Positions 30,367 through 40,008 of a stretch of DNA of 64,000 nucleotides are shown piece by piece. Where the stretch lies: the NCBI GenBank assembly GCA_036504055.1, contig DASXVU010000048.1:124001-188000 (forward strand), written 5' to 3'. Below the pieces are notes generated by a model, which saw nothing but the letters and a program-made list of their open reading frames with translations, had not been told where the DNA came from and ran no database searches. The DNA is from Methanomassiliicoccales archaeon. GTDB lineage: Archaea; Thermoplasmatota; Thermoplasmata; Methanomassiliicoccales; UBA472. Position numbers and translations under genes: made by a program. Numbering within the stretch: position 1 is the stretch's first letter; every line of letters begins with the position of its first letter.

Positions 30367-33294
30367 TCACGCATTGGCGCCATAGGTGTTCCCATAGATG
30401 CTCAGATGCGACCCATCGTTCTGCTGCCATACGGCCAAGGCATTGCCCGAACCATCCATGGCGACCTGGGGGACGAATGCATCCTTGGCGCCGGTCTCGA
30501 TTAGCTTTGCCGTTCCCCATGCTCCCGCCGAATACCGGTTGGCATAGATGCTGCCGCCCTGTGCCCATATGGCCACCGCGTTGCCATTGTTGTCCATGGC
30601 CACCTGGGGGGTCATGGCCCAGCCTGCGGACGTGTTCAGTAGCTTTGCCGTTCCCCACGCTCCCGCCGAATACCGGTTGGCATAGATGCTGCCGCCCTGT
30701 GCCCATATGGCCACCGCGTTGCCATTGTTGTCCATGGCCACCTGGGGGCTCGATCCCCAGACAGTGGAGGTCTTGATTGGCTGTGCCGTTCCCCACGCTC
30801 CCGCCGAATACCGGTCGGCATAGATCATACCGGCCTGTACCCATACCACGATCGCGTTGCCATTGTTGTCCATGGCCACCTGGGGGCTGCCAGCATCCAC
30901 ATTGGAGGTCTCCAGCAGTTGCGTCGTTCCCCAGCCGATGGCATTGGTATACTTGGAGGCATAGATGCTAAGGCGCCAGACGTTGTCCAGCTGTACCCAT
31001 ACCACGATCGCGTTGCCATTGTTGTCCATGGCTACCTGCGGTATCTGGGCATCGCCCTTGGCCGTCTCTATCAGCTTGGCGGCTCCCCAGGCACCAGCAG
31101 TGTATCTGTTGGCATACGTGCTGTAATAGGCACCGTCATACTGCCCCCATACCGCCACGGCGTTGCCATTGTTGTCCATGGCGACCTGCGGTGTCTTAGC
31201 GTCTCCCGTGGCTGTCTCCAGTAGCTGGGCGGTTCCCCAGGCCCCCGCGGCATACGTGTTGGCGTATATGCTGTAATAGGCACCGTCATACTGCCGCCAT
31301 ACCGCCACCGCATTGCCGTTGTTATCCATGGCGATCTGCGGTGAGTCAGCTGAACCGCTAATGGTTTCGATCAGGGTGACCGTTCCCCAGGCTCCAGACG
31401 AATAGCTACTGGCGTAGATGTTGTAATAGGTGCCGTCATACTGCTGCCAGACGACCATGGCATTGCCGTCGGTGCCCACAGCCACCTGGGGGGTCGAGGC
31501 ATCTCCAGAACCTGTCTCCAGTAGCTTGGCGGTCCCCCAACCCAATGTGATGCTCGGGACGTTCACCGGCGTCGAACTTACGGTCGATGTCTGAGCTCCG
31601 GTCCCGGCAGCGTTGTGCGCCGTGACCTTGAATGAATAGGACTGCCCGCCTGTGAGGCCAGCCACCGTGTATGACGTACTCGAGGCATGCTTAACATCGG
31701 CGCCGTCCTGATAGATCACGTAATAGTCGATCGCTGTCCCGCCGTTGGAGGAGGGGGCGGTCCAGTTCAATGACACCCGACCAGTTCCCGCAATGGCCTT
31801 GAGACCGGTCGGGACACCAGGCACCGTAAACGGTATTGAAACGACCGGTGATGACTGAGTACCGATACCTGCGGAACCATGTGCAGAGACGGCGAACGAG
31901 TAGCTCTGACCGTTCACAAGACCGGTGATCGTGGTCGATGTGGAAGCGACATGGGCGACATCGATCCCGCCCTGGTACACGATGTAATGGTCGATCGCTG
32001 TTCCACCATTGAAGGAAGGAGCCGTCCAGTTCAATGCCACCTGCCCGTTTCCTGCGATGGCGGTCAGACCGGTGGGAACATTGGGCACGCTTATCGGTGT
32101 TGAACTGACAGACGATGTCTGGGCCCCGGTCCCAGCGGGGTTGTGGGCCGCGACCGTGAACGAATAGCTATGGCCGTTCGCAAGACCGGCCACAGTGTAG
32201 GTCGTACCCGAGATGTGCTTTACATCAGCGCCTCCCTGGTAGACGATGTAGTAGTCGATCGCCGCCCCACCGTTGCTGCTCGGCGCGCTCCATACAAGAC
32301 CTACCTGTCCATTGCCGGCGGTGGCGATCAGACCGGTCGGGACGCCTGGAATGGTCGGACCGGGGACATTTATGCTTGCCAGGGGGTAGTAGTCCTTGCT
32401 GCTGCCCTCTCCGATCGGATAGGGTCTATCGATTATCCCATCTGCGTTGGCATCCGGCGTCGTCCAGTCGCTCCAGTAATTGCCGTATGAACCGGTGTTC
32501 CAATGGTTACCCACTCCGGTATCGGCGCATTGCTGGTGCAACGCATTATAGACGGACGTCGACTTGTTGTTCACGATCAATACGTTGCCGTATAGGTTGT
32601 TGAAGTCGGAGTCTGCAAGATGGATGCCGTGCCCCTTGTTGTTCTTCAAGGTGTTGTTCGATATGGTATTGCGGTCAGAATGCAGCACATAGATGCCATT
32701 GTCACCGCTTGAGTAGCAGGTGTTGTTGGAAATAACGTTCCTGTTGGAGTCTTTGTCCAGCATTACTGCGCATGCCCTGGTCGCCCGGCAGGTGTTATTG
32801 TTTATGATGTTGTCATACGCGGCAGACGTGTAGATGCCGTGAGCGGCGTCTATGCAGACATTGTTTGTTACGGTGTCGTTTCCCGTGCTGCGCAGCCAGA
32901 TGCCATATGGATCATTTCCGCTGCAGTTGTTGTTGGTCACGGTGACATAGTTGGATCTTATCACTTCGATGCCATAATTGTTACCATGCAGGTAGCTGTT
33001 GCTGATGACCAGCCGGACAGTTATATTCGCAACATAAATGCATGCGCCGCCCGTGCCAGATATATCGTACCCGTTGATGACATAAGGGTCGTTCGCGGTC
33101 CCCGATCCGGTGCAACCGCCTGCTGCTCTCAGGCTCAGCAGATCATTGTTATTGTCAATGTGGATGGTCGAATGTGGAATATAAGTCGGCCCGCTCGCCT
33201 GTACGACACCGATCGTTCCCACCGAAGAGAAGATCGACACGACCAACGAGAATGTTACTAGAATCAGAAGTCCCTTGCTGCCTGCTATCTTCAT
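30367..33294 (-). CDS. Secreted beta-helix / triple Fn3 / repeat protein
   Basis: A 975-residue exported protein in three parts. After the signal (about 8-34), a NosD/PbH1 beta-helix runs from about 50 to 300 and ends in the YWSDWTTPDANADGIID motif, also found in the giant protein. Three near-identical fibronectin III domains follow (about 316, 405 and 492 to 577), each with VPTGL at the start and GQSYSF in the middle. The last 400 residues are eight 'NGNA-VVW' repeats of the same kind as the protein at 16753-19359. No C-terminal anchor. ATG 33294 follows GGGGG. Likely a surface adhesin or carbohydrate-binding protein. Confidence 0.87.
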   Translation of the reverse strand: MKIAGSKGLLILVTFSLVVSIFSSVGTIGVVQASGPTYIPHSTIHIDNNNDLLSLRAAGGCTGSGTANDPYVINGYDISGTGGACIYVANITVRLVISNSYLHGNNYGIEVIRSNYVTVTNNNCSGNDPYGIWLRSTGNDTVTNNVCIDAAHGIYTSAAYDNIINNNTCRATRACAVMLDKDSNRNVISNNTCYSSGDNGIYVLHSDRNTISNNTLKNNKGHGIHLADSDFNNLYGNVLIVNNKSTSVYNALHQQCADTGVGNHWNTGSYGNYWSDWTTPDANADGIIDRPYPIGEGSSKDYYPLASINVPGPTIPGVPTGLIATAGNGQVGLVWSAPSSNGGAAIDYYIVYQGGADVKHISGTTYTVAGLANGHSYSFTVAAHNPAGTGAQTSSVSSTPISVPNVPTGLTAIAGNGQVALNWTAPSFNGGTAIDHYIVYQGGIDVAHVASTSTTITGLVNGQSYSFAVSAHGSAGIGTQSSPVVSIPFTVPGVPTGLKAIAGTGRVSLNWTAPSSNGGTAIDYYVIYQDGADVKHASSTSYTVAGLTGGQSYSFKVTAHNAAGTGAQTSTVSSTPVNVPSITLGWGTAKLLETGSGDASTPQVAVGTDGNAMVVWQQYDGTYYNIYASSYSSGAWGTVTLIETISGSADSPQIAMDNNGNAVAVWRQYDGAYYSIYANTYAAGAWGTAQLLETATGDAKTPQVAMDNNGNAVAVWGQYDGAYYSTYANRYTAGAWGAAKLIETAKGDAQIPQVAMDNNGNAIVVWVQLDNVWRLSIYASKYTNAIGWGTTQLLETSNVDAGSPQVAMDNNGNAIVVWVQAGMIYADRYSAGAWGTAQPIKTSTVWGSSPQVAMDNNGNAVAIWAQGGSIYANRYSAGAWGTAKLLNTSAGWAMTPQVAMDNNGNAVAIWAQGGSIYANRYSAGAWGTAKLIETGAKDAFVPQVAMDGSGNALAVWQQNDGSHLSIYGNTYGANA
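30503..30747. repeat. 138-bp tandem duplication inside the repeat protein
   Basis: Bases 30503-30609 and 30641-30747 are almost identical (one difference seen by eye), with a period of 138 bp or 46 codons. It is a recent in-frame duplication of one repeat unit. Confidence 0.8.
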
Positions 33295-33543
33295 GTCCCC
33301 CGCCCCCTTACCTCAATGAGGATCGGGTCTTTGTGGGAATTTCAATACTTAATGGTAACGCATAGCTATTAAAATCCGGTAGAAGCGAAGAATCAGTAAA
33401 TCGGCTTCGCATCCCAGCGAATCTCCTTCTTATTGCTGCTGACCGCCAAGATCGAATATAGAATATCATATCTTAGCTGATCCTCCGATATGTGGTAATC
33501 TATAACTATAGAATATCCTCATTGACGCTAATGGGGGTCGAGT

Positions 33544-34134
33544 GTGTCAGACGTAATTGGACTTCTTGGGGTCGTGGTGTCCATGATATCGGTCCTGGCA
33601 ACTCTTTACGGCACTTATTATACCAAGTGGCTGGAACGCGGACGATTGAATAAATGGATATCGGGCATCATCATCATCGTCCTCCTGGCATTCATGTCGA
33701 TCATGATCTATCCTTTGCTGACACAAGCGCAGACGCCAGCCCAAAATGAGCCTCCCCTGTCCACTCCCTCAACGCTCAATTCAACAACCCCCGTGGTCTC
33801 GATCACCAGCGTGAATTGTCAAATAACGTATACGAAGCCATGGTATCTTCCTACCTCAGATAGTTACTTTGACACCAGAACGACAGGGAATATAACCACC
33901 GCACCCGGAGGCAATTTTTCCATCCCTATCGTGTTTACCAGTCATGCCTCTACGCTGAATCACACAGTAGATTCAGTATCAATCAGTCCATTAGAGTTTT
34001 CTCTTCTTTCTGTTTCGCTAGAATTGCCGTCAACGAAAATAGCTCCTGGATCAAGTCTAACAATAACATTGAAGATACAGGCACCGTCATCTGCCTATTC
34101 CGGACCATTGATCATCAATGTATCCGCTTCCTAA
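33544..34134 (+). CDS. Membrane-anchored extracytoplasmic protein of unknown function
   Basis: A 196-residue protein with two N-terminal membrane helices (about 4-24 and 38-58) separated by a short basic loop (KWLERGRLNKW). A Pro/Ser/Thr linker follows, then an outer beta-sandwich domain from about 80 on (GGNFSIPIVFTSH, KIAPGSSLTITLKIQAPS, GPLIINVSAS), the pattern of archaeal Ig-like domains that sum two sheets. The start is GTG 33544, with GGGGGT a few bases upstream. No close family is recognised. Confidence 0.65.
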   Translation: MSDVIGLLGVVVSMISVLATLYGTYYTKWLERGRLNKWISGIIIIVLLAFMSIMIYPLLTQAQTPAQNEPPLSTPSTLNSTTPVVSITSVNCQITYTKPWYLPTSDSYFDTRTTGNITTAPGGNFSIPIVFTSHASTLNHTVDSVSISPLEFSLLSVSLELPSTKIAPGSSLTITLKIQAPSSAYSGPLIINVSAS

Positions 34135-34449
34135 TTCCAGAAGCCATTTAATCGATCTGGCTAACTTGGGTTCATTCACTTCAGTAACTGTCCCTTTTCA
34201 GGACCTTCATGAAAGACCCAATAAGTTATTCGAACGATCCATCTTCCTTTGCTATCTATTGCTTACTCGTGAAAAATGTCCTGGAACATGTCGATCTCGG
34301 CTTGGCAATCTCCCGGTTTTCCTGATCCTGGACATTCACGATCGGCTTCCCAAGTTCATTATCAAATATCACATTCTGATGCTAATTTTCTTTATTAGGA
34401 ATCACGTGTGAGCTTACCTGGGGCATCCTCTAGGGAAGATTGGGATATC
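34135..34449. other. 315-bp gap
   Basis: No convincing gene. An overlapping frame (34118-34411) has no support. The right end carries GGGATATC directly before the next start. Confidence 0.5.
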
Positions 34450-36117
34450 ATGAATCATAAGAAGCTCACCGCCTTGCTGGCAACGCTCATGCTCTTATCA
34501 CCGATTGTCACGTTGACAGTTGGATCGATGGTCGGCACGGTGTCCGCTGAGGTAAGCGGCAGTTTCGAATATTCACTCAACAGCGATGGAACGGCGGTTG
34601 AGATCACTAGATATAACGGCACAGGTACAAGCGCGGTCATTCCCAGCGTGATCGCCGGCAAGCCAGTCACCTCCATCGGGGAGCGGGCTTTTAGCAATTG
34701 TACTGCCTTGACGGCCGTGACCATCCCCAACAGCGTCCTGACCATCGGAGCGGGCGCTTTCCAGAACTGCTATTCCTTGACAGCCCTGACAATACCGAAC
34801 AGCGTCTCAAGCATCGGGGAGGGGGCGTTCTACGATGTCGGCCTTCGTTCGGTCGTCATCCCGAACAGCATGAAGGTCATCGAGGACAACCTGTTCTTCG
34901 ACTGCTATTCCCTGACCTCGGTGACGATTCCAGTCAGCATAACCAGCATCGGGGACTATTCGTTCGGCAACTGCTACCAGCTGAGCAGCATCATTATTCC
35001 CAAGAGCGTCACCAACATAGGCGCCGGTGCATTCTCTAACTGCGGCCTGAAGACGGCGGTCATACCGGAGAGCGTCAGCGCGATCAAGGATCGCTGCTTT
35101 CAGGGCTGTTATGCCCTGACCTCGGTGACCATACCCGTCAGCGTCACAAGCCTTGGCAATTATTCTTTCAACAATTGCTATGCACTGTCTTCCATCACGA
35201 TCCCCAGCAACGTAACGAGCCTGGGGGATTACCTTTTCAGTAACTGTTACAAACTGAAATCGGCGGCCATTATGGGAAGTGTCTCGAACATAGGGGCTGG
35301 CGCTTTCTCAAACTGTTACGAGCTGGCCGCGATCACCTTCTATGACAACGCACCCTCCATGGGGGTTGGCTGGAAGACCGGATGCGGGGGAAATTTGACG
35401 GTCTCTTACTACCAAGGAGCGACCGGATTCACCGACCTGTCATGGAGCGGAGTGATACTCCATCAAATGACGTCGCCCAACGCCCCCCGGAACCTTACCG
35501 CAGTGACTGGAGACAGCAGAGTGACCTTATCATGGAAGGTCCCGAGCGGCCCCCTTGGCATTTCCACCGCGAGCTATCTTGTCTATCAGAACGATATCTG
35601 TGTCGAGCGGGTGGTCGGTACCTCGGAGAAGATCAGCGGCCTGACGAATGGATTGTCCTACAACTTCACCGTCGTCCTCACCAACACAAAGGGAAATCTG
35701 CTTAATTCCACCTCCATCGTGGTCAGGGTGCCCATCATAGGGGTCGCGGTCGATGGGACGGCCAACGATATCGACGGAAACCCGATTGCGAACGCCACCG
35801 TTACTCTAAGCAACGGCACGGTCGTGATGACGAACGAATACGGGCAATTCATGATCCTTGGGGTCAAGGCAGGCAATTATAGTCTCACCATTGCCAAGGA
35901 CGGTTACTCGACCATCACGCAGAACGTGACGGTCACATCCGAAAAGAATGCCGATCTCGATTCCGTCGTCCTTCAGGCTATCGATCCTCCCGCCAGCAAT
36001 GGGTCGGGTTCAGGTGACCTGACCCTGATCATCGCCGCCGTGGCCATAGCGGCCGTCATCGCCGTATACTTCCTTTTCTTCCGTAAGCCAAAGGCTAGCG
36101 GCCGGCGCAAGAAGTAG
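34450..36117 (+). CDS. BspA-type LRR surface protein with Fn3 and CarboxypepD_reg domain
   Basis: A 555-residue exported protein: signal (about 5-35), about nine BspA-like leucine-rich repeats (about 60-340; consensus LTSVTIPxSVTSIGxxAFxNC), a fibronectin III domain (about 355-440), a carboxypeptidase-regulatory-like beta-sandwich (about 443-520, TANDIDGNPIANATVTLSNG), and a C-terminal membrane helix (about 527-546) with basic tail. ATG 34450 follows GGGATATC and is preferred over 34408, which would add 14 polar residues ahead of the signal. Probably an adhesin or receptor displayed on the cell surface. Confidence 0.87.
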   Translation: MNHKKLTALLATLMLLSPIVTLTVGSMVGTVSAEVSGSFEYSLNSDGTAVEITRYNGTGTSAVIPSVIAGKPVTSIGERAFSNCTALTAVTIPNSVLTIGAGAFQNCYSLTALTIPNSVSSIGEGAFYDVGLRSVVIPNSMKVIEDNLFFDCYSLTSVTIPVSITSIGDYSFGNCYQLSSIIIPKSVTNIGAGAFSNCGLKTAVIPESVSAIKDRCFQGCYALTSVTIPVSVTSLGNYSFNNCYALSSITIPSNVTSLGDYLFSNCYKLKSAAIMGSVSNIGAGAFSNCYELAAITFYDNAPSMGVGWKTGCGGNLTVSYYQGATGFTDLSWSGVILHQMTSPNAPRNLTAVTGDSRVTLSWKVPSGPLGISTASYLVYQNDICVERVVGTSEKISGLTNGLSYNFTVVLTNTKGNLLNSTSIVVRVPIIGVAVDGTANDIDGNPIANATVTLSNGTVVMTNEYGQFMILGVKAGNYSLTIAKDGYSTITQNVTVTSEKNADLDSVVLQAIDPPASNGSGSGDLTLIIAAVAIAAVIAVYFLFFRKPKASGRRKK

Positions 36118-36271
36118 GTCTGCAGTCTTTCATGTTGGATAGATATGTCAAATTATCTTGACGCTATTGTCTCTCGATCCAGATCATGCCCCGGCCAATG
36201 TCATTTCGACGTTCAACGATCTGGAACAGCAGTTTCCCTTCTCTAAAGTCGTCGATCGTTCGAGCGGGAGG

Positions 36272-36673
36272 CATATTATAAGAAAATGGCGATTTCATAT
36301 GTTAAATTATTATCAATATTATGCATATTTTCAGGAACAAAACGCTATTCAGCGATTATTATCATGATTATTTTGTATATAATTTTGTTTATATCGTATT
36401 ACCCAATTCCCTTCCTTAAGAGTAGTTCAAAACGGAAGAGCCCTCACCGAGGGAATGAACTCTCTGCTGCCAGAAAAGTGACTCTGACGGATCAGTTGCA
36501 ATCAACATCTCGGGATCGATTTTTTTGATCCAGATGTTCAGGCTGCATGCCCATTGAGCGATTCCTTCCGATCGCGTTTAAACACGAGCCAGCCCCGATG
36601 CGGATAAACGTATCGTCCGGGTAACTGGCTCCGTTCAGTCTGCCCAGTGAAACCTAACAAGGAGCTGATAAGC
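36272..36673 (+). promoter_or_regulatory. Structured leader A (promoter plus conserved hairpins)
   Basis: About 400 bp, aligned with leader B at roughly 90% identity over the first 130 bp. TATATAA at 36376-36382 predicts transcription from about 36403 and a 5' UTR of about 270 nt. Hairpins: CCCTC/GAGGG (36441-36453); AACATCT-cg-GGATC/GATCC-AGATGTT (36504-36538); GCGAT/ATCGC near 36558-36575; and GAGCCAG/CTGGCTC (36586-36592, 36625-36631) enclosing CGATGCG/CGTATCG (36596-36615). All recur in leader B, the last with a compensatory base-pair change. It ends in GGAGCTGAT before the small gene. A short hydrophobic frame (36286-36528) also lies in it. Confidence 0.7.
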
Positions 36674-36886
36674 ATGAGAATGGGATCTTCATCGAAGAAG
36701 GACATTCGCGGGACGGGCATCATGATGGCCGTCCTTGTTGCGGCTGGACGTGCTGCGACCGTCGATCTGTCCGTTTTGAACAGCGTATCGAACAAATCGA
36801 AGGACCGGTCCTGGAAGATCGGCGATCAGGCGATGAAAAAGACCGGAAATACCCCTGCCATGACCAGAGGCTGTTTGCATGAGTAA
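36674..36886 (+). CDS. Small conserved protein A, coupled to beta-helix gene
   Basis: A 70-residue protein starting at ATG 36674 behind GGAGCTGAT. It aligns along its whole length with small protein B at 38654 (core AATVDLSVLNSV, KDR-WK-GDQAM). Most base differences between the two are at third codon positions, so it is truly coding. The protein is basic, with a mildly hydrophobic stretch (about 14-30) but no clear membrane helix or signal. Its stop overlaps the beta-helix start by 8 nt, implying translational coupling. I know no family for it. It may be a regulator, chaperone or partner of the exported protein. Confidence 0.75.
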   Translation: MRMGSSSKKDIRGTGIMMAVLVAAGRAATVDLSVLNSVSNKSKDRSWKIGDQAMKKTGNTPAMTRGCLHE

Positions 36887-38036
36887 ATTCCAGTTCAAAA
36901 GTAGGTCCTTGACGTTCCTATCCTTCTTGTTTGTGGGAGCGTTGATCGGTATGTCTTTCATGGGTGCTGTGCCCGTCCAAGCGCTTTCGGCTCCGGTGGG
37001 CGATGGAACGTCGGTCTCCGTGGCCTACACCATCTACAAGGATGGCAGCGGTTACACCTGCGCAAAGAACAGCGCGACCGGGGCCATCGATTATAGGAAC
37101 ACCAACTCGAAATGGGTGATCCAGAAGGCCATCGACAAGCTTTCGGGCGGTTATATCCTGATCAAAGCCGGAAAATATGACATAACCCAGACCATCTACA
37201 CCAACAAGGTGTCGATCATCGGCGAGGGGAACGCGACGGTGTTGGACGCCACCACCGCCTGCACTGGTGCGGTCATTAGGGTGTGCAATAACTACTGGAC
37301 ACTAGATTACAGATACATGTCCGCACGCCCCAACGGGATAACCATCGGCAACATGCAGATCGACGGCAACCGTGCGGTCCGGACCAATGGATTGCTGGAA
37401 GGGGTCGGCTTCATAAACTGCCTCAATAGCCACATGGTCAGGATCTATGCGCATGACATCATCGGCGGGCAGGGACTGTACATGTCCAACTCTCAGTACT
37501 GTACCATCGTCGATTGTCAGATCTACAACGTCGGAGACAACACCGCGGCCCATTACGGATCGGGCATAGCGTTCGGCGAGGCATCTGAGATCAAGGTCCC
37601 GTGCTCGTACATCACGATCGACAACTGTCTGATATCCAGGGCCTCGATGTCATCGATCGACCTGGAGCCGGCCAACAACGTGGTCATAAAGAACTGCGTT
37701 TTCCGTGAGGCTACCACCTGGAAGGGATATCCCACCCCGGTGATCACGGAATACGCGGTATATGGATACGCTCCAGCGAACGACTACATCACCGTGACCG
37801 GATGCAACGTCAACGGTGCGTTCAGTGAGTTCGTCGTTCTGACCCCGAGCAGCCACTCGGTGATCAAGAACAACGTCGTCACTCAGACCGCGGGCACGAC
37901 CACGGCGATATACTCGACCAACTCGCACTCGAACACGATCACCGGTAACGTGATCAAGACCGCCTCGCCCAGGCCGATCCAACTCGTGGGCTGCACTTCG
38001 TGCACGGTCTCGGGCAACACGATCCTGGCCAGATGA
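36879..38036 (+). CDS. Secreted right-handed beta-helix protein (copy A)
   Basis: A 385-residue exported protein: signal (about 10-33, ending near VQALS), then a pectate-lyase-like parallel beta-helix to the C-terminus. Key segments are GGYILIKAGKYDITQ, IIGEGNATVL, NGITIGNMQIDGN, GQGLYMSNSQYC, YGSGIAFGE and SMSSIDLEPANNV. It has many Cys (CAKN, TACTGA, VCNNY, GCTSCTVSG), so disulphides are likely. No membrane anchor, unlike the relative at 21059. It is a tandem paralogue of copy B. Overlap with the small gene upstream and a terminator downstream define a two-gene unit. Catalytic residues are not evident. Confidence 0.87.
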   Translation: MSKFQFKSRSLTFLSFLFVGALIGMSFMGAVPVQALSAPVGDGTSVSVAYTIYKDGSGYTCAKNSATGAIDYRNTNSKWVIQKAIDKLSGGYILIKAGKYDITQTIYTNKVSIIGEGNATVLDATTACTGAVIRVCNNYWTLDYRYMSARPNGITIGNMQIDGNRAVRTNGLLEGVGFINCLNSHMVRIYAHDIIGGQGLYMSNSQYCTIVDCQIYNVGDNTAAHYGSGIAFGEASEIKVPCSYITIDNCLISRASMSSIDLEPANNVVIKNCVFREATTWKGYPTPVITEYAVYGYAPANDYITVTGCNVNGAFSEFVVLTPSSHSVIKNNVVTQTAGTTTAIYSTNSHSNTITGNVIKTASPRPIQLVGCTSCTVSGNTILAR

Positions 38037-38244: not shown

Positions 38245-38250
38245 TCGGAG

Positions 38251-38653
38251 CATACTATAAGAAATTGGCGATTTCATATGTTAAATTATTATCAATATTA
38301 TGGATATTTTCAGGAACAAAACGCCACTCAGTGATTATTATGATGATATTTTTCTATATAATTTTGTTTATATCGCATAACTCCAATTCCCTTATTCACG
38401 AGAGTTCAAAACGGAAGAGCCCTCATCGAGGGCAACGGACTCTCGGCCGTTAGAGCAGAACTCTCACGGATCAATTGCAATCAACATCTCGGGATCCATT
38501 TTTGATCCAGATGTTCAGGCTGTATGCCCCATTGAGCGATTTCTTCCGATCGCGTGTAAATACGAGGCAGGCCCCGGGACGATCACTGAATCGTCCGGGT
38601 ACCTGCCTCCGTTCAGTCTGTCCAGTGCAACGTAATGAAAGGAGCTGATAAGC
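38251..38653 (+). promoter_or_regulatory. Structured leader B (promoter plus conserved hairpins)
   Basis: Second copy of the leader, 403 bp. TATATAA at 38355-38361. Hairpins match leader A: CCCTC/GAGGG; AACATCT-cg-GGATC/GATCC-AGATGTT (38483-38515); GCGAT/ATCGC; and GAGGCAGG/CCTGCCTC (38564-38571, 38602-38609) enclosing GGACGAT/ATCGTCC (38577-38596) with a 6-nt loop. In the outer stem the fourth pair is G-C here and C-G in leader A, so both sides changed together. It runs to GGAGCTGAT before small gene B. Confidence 0.7.
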
Positions 38654-38863
38654 ATGAGAATGGTATCTTCATCGAAGGACATGCGCGGGATGGGCGTCAC
38701 GACGGCCATCCTGGTCGCGGCAGGACGTGCTGCGACGGTCGACCTGTCCGTTTTGAACAGTGTTGCGAACAAAGCAAAGGACCGCGCCTGGAAGCTCGGC
38801 GATCAGGCGATGAGAAAGTGCATCGGCGGAGATGCCTCCGCCATCAACAGAGGCTGTATCTAA
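38654..38863 (+). CDS. Small conserved protein B, coupled to beta-helix gene
   Basis: A 69-residue paralogue of small protein A, with the same ribosome site (GGAGCTGAT, 4 nt before ATG). The N-terminal (SSSKDMRGMG) and core (AATVDLSVLNSVANKAKDRAWKLG split here only for reading) regions are conserved; the C-terminus varies but both end in RGC plus two to four residues. The stop TAA shares its last A with the ATG of the beta-helix gene (TAATG), an overlap different from copy A yet again coupling translation. No known family. Confidence 0.75.
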   Translation: MRMVSSSKDMRGMGVTTAILVAAGRAATVDLSVLNSVANKAKDRAWKLGDQAMRKCIGGDASAINRGCI

Positions 38864-40008
38864 TGACATTTTTCAGGTTCAAGGGCAGGTCCCTGACGTT
38901 CCTGACCATCATGTTCGTGGGAGTTTTGATCGGAACATCGGTCTTGGGTGCGATGCCGGCCCAAGCGGCGACGATCGCCCCGGTGGGGAATGGAACATCG
39001 GTCTCAGTGGCGTACACTATCTACAAGGACAGCAGCGGTTACACCTGTGCGAAGAACTGCGCCAACGGTGCCATCGATTTCCGTAACACGAACTCGAGAT
39101 GGGTAATTCAAAAGACCATCGACAAGCTGTCGGGCGGTTACATATTGATCAAGGCCGGAACCTATGCGATTACCCAGACGATCTACACCAACAAGGTGTC
39201 GATCATCGGTGAGGGTAACGCAACCATCCTGAAGGCCAGCGGCAATGTGGGAGGCGGTATGATCAAGGTGACCGATGGCTACTGGACACTGGACTACAGG
39301 TTGATGTCGAGTCGCCCGAATGGAATAACCATCGGCAATCTGCAGATCAATGGCCTGGGCGGTGGATCGATGAAAGGGGTCGCCTTCATTGATTGCCTCA
39401 ACAGCAAGATGGTCCGCATCTATGTCCATGACATATTGGCCTGTCAGGGGCTCTACATGTCCAACTCGCAATATTGTAGCATCTCCCGTTGCCAGATCTA
39501 CAACGTCGGGGACAACACAGCAGCCCATTACGGATCGGGAATAGCTTTCGGTGAGGCGTCATCGACGAAGGTCGCTTCCTCCTATATCACCATCGATAAC
39601 TGCCTGATAAGCAAGACATCGATGTCCTCGATAGACCTGGAGCCGGCCAACCACGTGACCATCACCAACTGCGTGTTCCGCGAGGCCGCCATGTGGAAGA
39701 ACTACTACAACCCGGTGATAACGGAGTATCGGGTGTCAGGGTATGCAGCAAATGACTACATCACAGTGAGCGGATGCAACGCCAACGGCGGATTCAATGA
39801 ATTCATCGTTCTGACGCCAAGCAGCCATTCCGTGGTCAAGAACAACGTCATTACGCAAACCCGCGGTTCGTGCACCCCTATCTACGTGACCTACTCGCAA
39901 TACGACACGATCACCGGAAACAAGATCACGACCGCTTCGAGCCAGCCGATCCACCTTGTGGGTTGCAGTTCATGCACTGTCTCGGGCAACACGATCATCA
40001 AGCGGTGA
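38863..40008 (+). CDS. Secreted right-handed beta-helix protein (copy B)
   Basis: A 381-residue exported protein, homologous end to end with copy A: signal (about 10-33, ending near AQAAT), TIYKDSSGYTCAKN, GGYILIKAGTYAITQ, GQGLYMSNSQYC, YGSGIAFGE, SMSSIDLEPANHV, final SCTVSGNTI. The frame is open to 38635, but ATG 38863 is set by homology to copy A and by the TAATG overlap. Differences cluster in turns (for example LGGGSMKG against AVRTNGLLEG), as expected for surface loops under diversifying use. It is followed by a strong terminator. Confidence 0.87.
   Translation: MTFFRFKGRSLTFLTIMFVGVLIGTSVLGAMPAQAATIAPVGNGTSVSVAYTIYKDSSGYTCAKNCANGAIDFRNTNSRWVIQKTIDKLSGGYILIKAGTYAITQTIYTNKVSIIGEGNATILKASGNVGGGMIKVTDGYWTLDYRLMSSRPNGITIGNLQINGLGGGSMKGVAFIDCLNSKMVRIYVHDILACQGLYMSNSQYCSISRCQIYNVGDNTAAHYGSGIAFGEASSTKVASSYITIDNCLISKTSMSSIDLEPANHVTITNCVFREAAMWKNYYNPVITEYRVSGYAANDYITVSGCNANGGFNEFIVLTPSSHSVVKNNVITQTRGSCTPIYVTYSQYDTITGNKITTASSQPIHLVGCSSCTVSGNTIIKR

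Follow-up and report, generated by a model that had tools for sequence, protein, structure and literature searches.

A decayed archaellin fragment as a candidate coupled leader ORF of secreted beta-helix genes in a methanogenic archaeon

In a stretch of 64,000 nucleotides from a Methanomassiliicoccales genome (hereafter, the window), two genes for predicted secreted beta-helix proteins are each preceded, and slightly overlapped, by a short open reading frame (ORF) that is a degraded archaellin N-terminus. From these sequences, we consider it reasonably likely that the decayed archaellin 5′ fragment has been retained as a translationally coupled leader cistron of the beta-helix genes. The genome (2.66 Mb) encodes McrA as well as archaellin genes (PF01917), which marks the organism as a methanogenic archaeon, and contains four full copies of the short ORF, with the three others being 72, 55, and 48% identical to copy 1. 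The archaellin origin accounts for what otherwise looks like an orphan family of small proteins, and it implies that a fragment of a structural gene could be reused as a translational leader.

Short ORFs and their junctions with beta-helix genes

Table 1. Features of the two short ORF loci within the window
Feature	Coordinates	Strand	Remarks
Promoter-like block, copy 1	36270..36405	+	AT-rich (TATATAATTTTGTTTATA); homology between copies starts here; promoter function putative
Structured leader, copy 1	36408..36673	+	Several predicted hairpins, core 36497-36662; fold, model R1
Short ORF, copy 1	36674..36886	+	70 aa; derived from archaellin N-terminus
Right-handed beta-helix protein, predicted secreted	36879..38036	+	385 aa; Pfam PF13229, E 2.5e-16; 8-nt overlap with short ORF
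Promoter-like block, copy 2	38250..38383	+	Alignment of copies
Structured leader, copy 2	38388..38653	+	Core 38476-38640; fold, model R1
Short ORF, copy 2	38654..38863	+	69 aa
Beta-helix protein, predicted secreted	38863..40008	+	381 aa; PF13229, E 2.9e-13; TAATG overlap with short ORF

Both window frames are present as an earlier sequence-only reading described them (Table 1), the ribosome site GGAGCTGATAAGCATGAG and the start codon are identical in the two copies, as it had stated, and the junctions with the beta-helix genes are those that it gave (ATGAGTAA at 36879 and TAATG at 38863). Full copies in the genome are 68 to 72 aa long and end at the beta-helix start. Their stop codons are TAA or TGA and are differently placed, yet they fall near the beta-helix start in five of five copies, when a shortened copy (see below) is included: the overlaps are 8, 1, 4, and 4 nt, and there is one gap of 2 nt. 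The gap belongs to copy 4, which does not overlap its beta-helix gene and where the beta-helix start is uncertain. In every copy, a short frame joins a predicted exported beta-helix start (the signal peptide of the 385-aa protein was judged by eye), as would be expected of the translational coupling originally proposed. The short ORF ends in a conserved RGC that overlies AGAGGYTG, probably the ribosome site of the following gene. Copy 3 (L003, C45) departs from the others in that its first ATG is replaced by ATT and its ribosome site is altered, such that its ORF may start at an inner ATG or be translated poorly.

Two other arrangements were considered and rejected. The short ORF could have been fused to the beta-helix gene, and in copy 2 the frame does run open across the short ORF; in copy 1 it is broken, with several upstream stops in the beta-helix frame across the short ORF. 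A hairpin sequestering the downstream AGAGG ribosome site was discarded because the predicted pairing differs inconsistently between copies.

Relative to the beta-helix protein of copy 2, identity is 74% for that of copy 1 and 71% for that of copy 4, and two further paralogues in the genome share 49 and 44% identity. The protein that follows copy 3 is also a beta-helix protein (PF13229, E 3e-7), although a paralogue search at E ≤ 0.01 did not recover it; a copy of the leader thus precedes a protein without recognizable kinship to the others by this search. The absence of the short frame beside related beta-helix genes had been named in advance as evidence against the pairing. Among five homologues in this genome, three have the full frame, one has a shortened frame, and one has none. 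The last is the 44%-identity paralogue (L034, 21404-22396, minus strand), which is without short frame, leader, or a junction of the short-ORF type. The start of this paralogue lies across the final bases (GTGTTAA) of a 154-aa frame that is unrelated and has no Pfam match. Elsewhere in the window, positions 30367-36117 hold a predicted surface-protein cluster encoding a 975-aa protein with beta-helix and fibronectin III domains and a leucine-rich-repeat protein of the BspA type that also carries fibronectin III and carboxypeptidase-regulatory domains.

Upstream of the 49%-identity paralogue is a frame of 33 to 36 aa whose sequence is similar to the beginning of copy 4 and which meets the beta-helix gene in an ATGA junction. 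This frame is probably a fifth copy with an internal deletion, having lost the whole middle while retaining the start-like end and the junction. Its homology is clear against copy 4 only (equaled by 1 of 2,000 shuffles); against archaellin (16 of 2,000) and copy 3 (19 of 2,000) it is weaker, and with copies 1 and 2 (204 and 114 of 2,000, respectively) it does not reach significance; the leader covariance model recognized no leader there.

Archaellin origin of the short ORF

The sequence-only reading regarded the short ORF as an unknown family, a view superseded by profile comparison, shuffle tests, and blastn, all of which point to a degraded archaellin N-terminus. When a profile of the four copies was compared with four archaellins (hhalign), the alignment had a probability of 97.1% (E 5.9e-11, 60 columns), with 38% identical columns over the first ~60 archaellin residues. 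All four proteins score 69 to 94 against archaellin versus shuffle maxima of 40 to 54, beating all 1,000 shuffles. At the DNA level, every copy beats all codon shuffles when compared with archaellin 1; against archaellin 2, copies 2 and 3 fail to do so. A blastn comparison of copy 4 with archaellin (E 3.7e-11) detects similarity from the start codon onward, and a search of the genome with the short ORF returns six matches: the four short ORFs themselves and two weak hits located within archaellin genes. The archaellin at L005 matches PF01917 with an E value of 1.9e-27; for the two short ORFs in the window, Pfam (including PF01917) returned no family. A third archaellin-like frame, open over 235 aa (G000:C31:52735-52899, minus strand), occurs outside the two-archaellin locus.

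The short ORF has nothing that corresponds to archaellin past approximately residue 62, and in all four copies the hydrophobic helix is broken by charged or proline residues, with a best 19-residue hydropathy of 0.91 to 1.67 versus 3.01 in archaellin. Homology across the archaellin signal and helix region could be taken to mean that class III signal peptidase still processes the product, which would then enter a filament as a minor archaellin or pilin, but the broken helix and its low hydropathy, a fifth copy that has no helix region, and the failure of both tested window copies to match PF01917 make this very improbable.

A duplicated promoter-like block and structured leader

Homology among the four full copies begins abruptly ~400 bp upstream and continues through the AT-rich block and a leader of ~200 nt into the ORF, with identity between copies rising from 17 to 32% before the block to 62 to 81% within it. 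Because these ~400 bp are also duplicated, the conserved unit comprises more than the short ORF.

The four leaders have fold z scores of −3.15, −4.09, −3.07, and −1.81 (for copies 1 and 2, 0 of 200 shuffles each were as good), compared with −0.41 to −0.05 for upstream control stretches; three downstream control stretches are unremarkable and one has a z score of −2.69. An RNA model (R1), built from the four leader copies themselves, matches copies 1 and 2 with 162.9 and 189.6 bits. RNAalifold predicts 71 pairs, 8 of them with double changes, with a covariation term of +1.5, which is unfavorable and comes from four related sequences only. At one position of hairpin P4 (row 215/255 of the RNAalifold prediction), the copies, read by hand, display a mismatch and three Watson-Crick pairs that differ from one another; in four sequences, such changes are suggestive of kept pairing, but only that. 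The leader of copy 3 is without a 19-nt stretch that folds into a hairpin in the remaining copies. A search of L001 to L006 against Rfam 15 gave no family match for the leader at E values up to 5.

Distribution of the short ORF and leader

Within this genome, a DNA search found the leader at the four copies, plus 8 fragments of ≤20 bases with E values above 1.5, and the leader covariance model found the four copies only. In the 146 other genomes of the order, we found no clear copy of the short ORF or leader. As a DNA query at E ≤ 0.05, the leader has matches in 10 of 147 genomes, but those outside this genome are fragments of 18 to 41 bases (E 0.0015 to 0.046) that we take to be chance similarities; under stricter filters, the leader RNA model matches this genome alone (1 of 147). 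Profile A3 of the short ORF has matches in 15 of 147 genomes: of the 20 listed matches that lie in other genomes, 19 are in open frames of 188 to 276 aa, which we take to be archaellin-like by their length (Pfam was run on L005, with which L007 and L010 were aligned), and the remaining one is in a 68-aa frame at the edge of a contig. A collection of genome contigs (peptide patterns confirmed with tblastn) yielded no relative of the short ORF, and neither did viral contigs, where nothing turned up for the beta-helix protein or for an exact 24-base pattern from the leader either.

Selection on the short ORF and competing readings

The window copies had been said to differ mostly at third bases, which does not hold: they differ at 11, 7, and 13 sites in codon positions 1, 2, and 3 (13 of 31 third-base). 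The accompanying claim that the reading frame is kept survives in that indels in the short ORF preserve the frame in net, whereas most leader indels have lengths not divisible by three. Over the four copies, a codon model estimates an omega of 0.49 (likelihood ratio test [LRT], P = 0.0014), indicating moderate constraint and lying away from the value near 1 that the sequence-only reading had named as adverse. Since the four copies are paralogues of one genome that may have exchanged sequence, they are not independent.

An omega below 1 makes a function of the peptide itself possible. The 70-aa product would then be a working small protein that regulates the beta-helix protein, acts as its chaperone, or helps in its assembly, which would agree with its basic composition (read from the sequence), with the conservation of W and GDQAM in all four copies, and with the fact that overlapping gene pairs often encode partners, as reported in PMC10666635. 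The GDQAM stretch, however, has an omega (0.67, P = 0.49) indistinguishable from 1; the protein has no family above the cutoff and no confident fold (AlphaFold mean pLDDT of 53, from a four-row alignment), copy 3 has lost its start, and the fifth copy, without its middle, retains only 33 to 36 aa. The evidence for a working protein is thus weak, and the regulator, chaperone, or secretion helper suggested earlier is poorly supported; we regard such a product as improbable.

A different possibility is that only the promoter and leader matter, and that the archaellin fragment is a passive relic, decaying as it is carried along with a duplicated promoter-leader cassette. The broken hydrophobic core, the loss of ATG in copy 3, and the well-folded leader would all be expected of such a relic; moreover, in neutral simulation without indels from three starting sequences, none of the four frames was closed in 175, 25, and 123 of 3,000 runs, so openness alone is only modest evidence of maintenance. 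Set against this are the frame-keeping indels, the omega of 0.49, and the proximity of stop to start in five of five copies with different stops, including a fifth copy that is without a recognizable leader. On balance, we judge a passive relic to be rather unlikely.

The same observations of proximity and frame-keeping indels, together with the ATGA junction kept by the fifth copy, favor the coupled leader ORF. Under this model, transcription would begin downstream of the AT-rich block, ribosomes would enter the short ORF through its strong GGAG site, stop at the junction, and reinitiate at the beta-helix start, whose own Shine-Dalgarno-like AGAGG sits within the short ORF. The leader RNA may modulate ribosome loading, possibly setting expression, and translating the short ORF would count for more than its peptide. 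Several features count against the model: the omega of 0.49, which hints at some constraint on the peptide, the ATT start of copy 3, the gap in copy 4, the inconsistent pairing of AGAGG, and the partial homology of the fifth copy.

Experiments in Haloferax volcanii and Escherichia coli reported in PMC10666635 indicate that reinitiation depends strongly on such short distances and that the final 15 nt of the upstream gene are enough in two E. coli pairs; according to PMC6728339, an internal Shine-Dalgarno motif aids reinitiation to a variable extent. If so little is needed for coupling, a leader frame would require little protein sequence of its own, which fits the observed decay.

On a broader and doubtful but conceivable reading, the whole unit would be a portable cassette, comprising a promoter, an undescribed signal-sensing RNA, and a ribosome-passing leader ORF, that has been copied before different beta-helix genes of one methanogen. 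If so, several surface proteins would come under one control. In any case, the four surface-protein genes appear to have in common a structured leader that is undescribed.

Comparison with known systems

Like archaellin (Arch_flagellin, PF01917; FlaB/ArlB), the short ORFs align over the N-terminal ~60 residues, with DNA similarity beginning at the start codon; they differ in their broken hydrophobic assembly helix, in being without the C-terminal outer domain (archaellin totals ~200 aa), and in preceding beta-helix genes rather than residing in the archaellum operon. Regulatory upstream ORFs and leader peptides likewise place a short frame and structured RNA before a main gene, and a Salmonella case (PMC8092293) reportedly has such an ORF within a structured 5′ leader; here, the system is archaeal and derives from a known structural gene, and, unlike in regulatory leader-peptide systems, we found no ligand, stalling motif, or switch for the short ORF or leader. 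The beta-helix adhesin-like proteins of Methanomassiliicoccales (PMC7883539) correspond to the downstream genes in being secreted parallel beta-helix proteins, although the main text of that study, by term search, mentions neither archaellin nor flagellin. In the portions of the literature covered, we found no description of an archaellin-derived short ORF and leader before beta-helix genes. Another parallel is with coupled overlapping gene pairs as presented in PMC6728339 and PMC10666635: whereas the upstream frame here is a degraded fragment of an unrelated protein and not a partner subunit, with coupling predicted from sequence, it has in common with those pairs the short overlaps, including ATGA and TAATG, and a Shine-Dalgarno-like site within the upstream frame.
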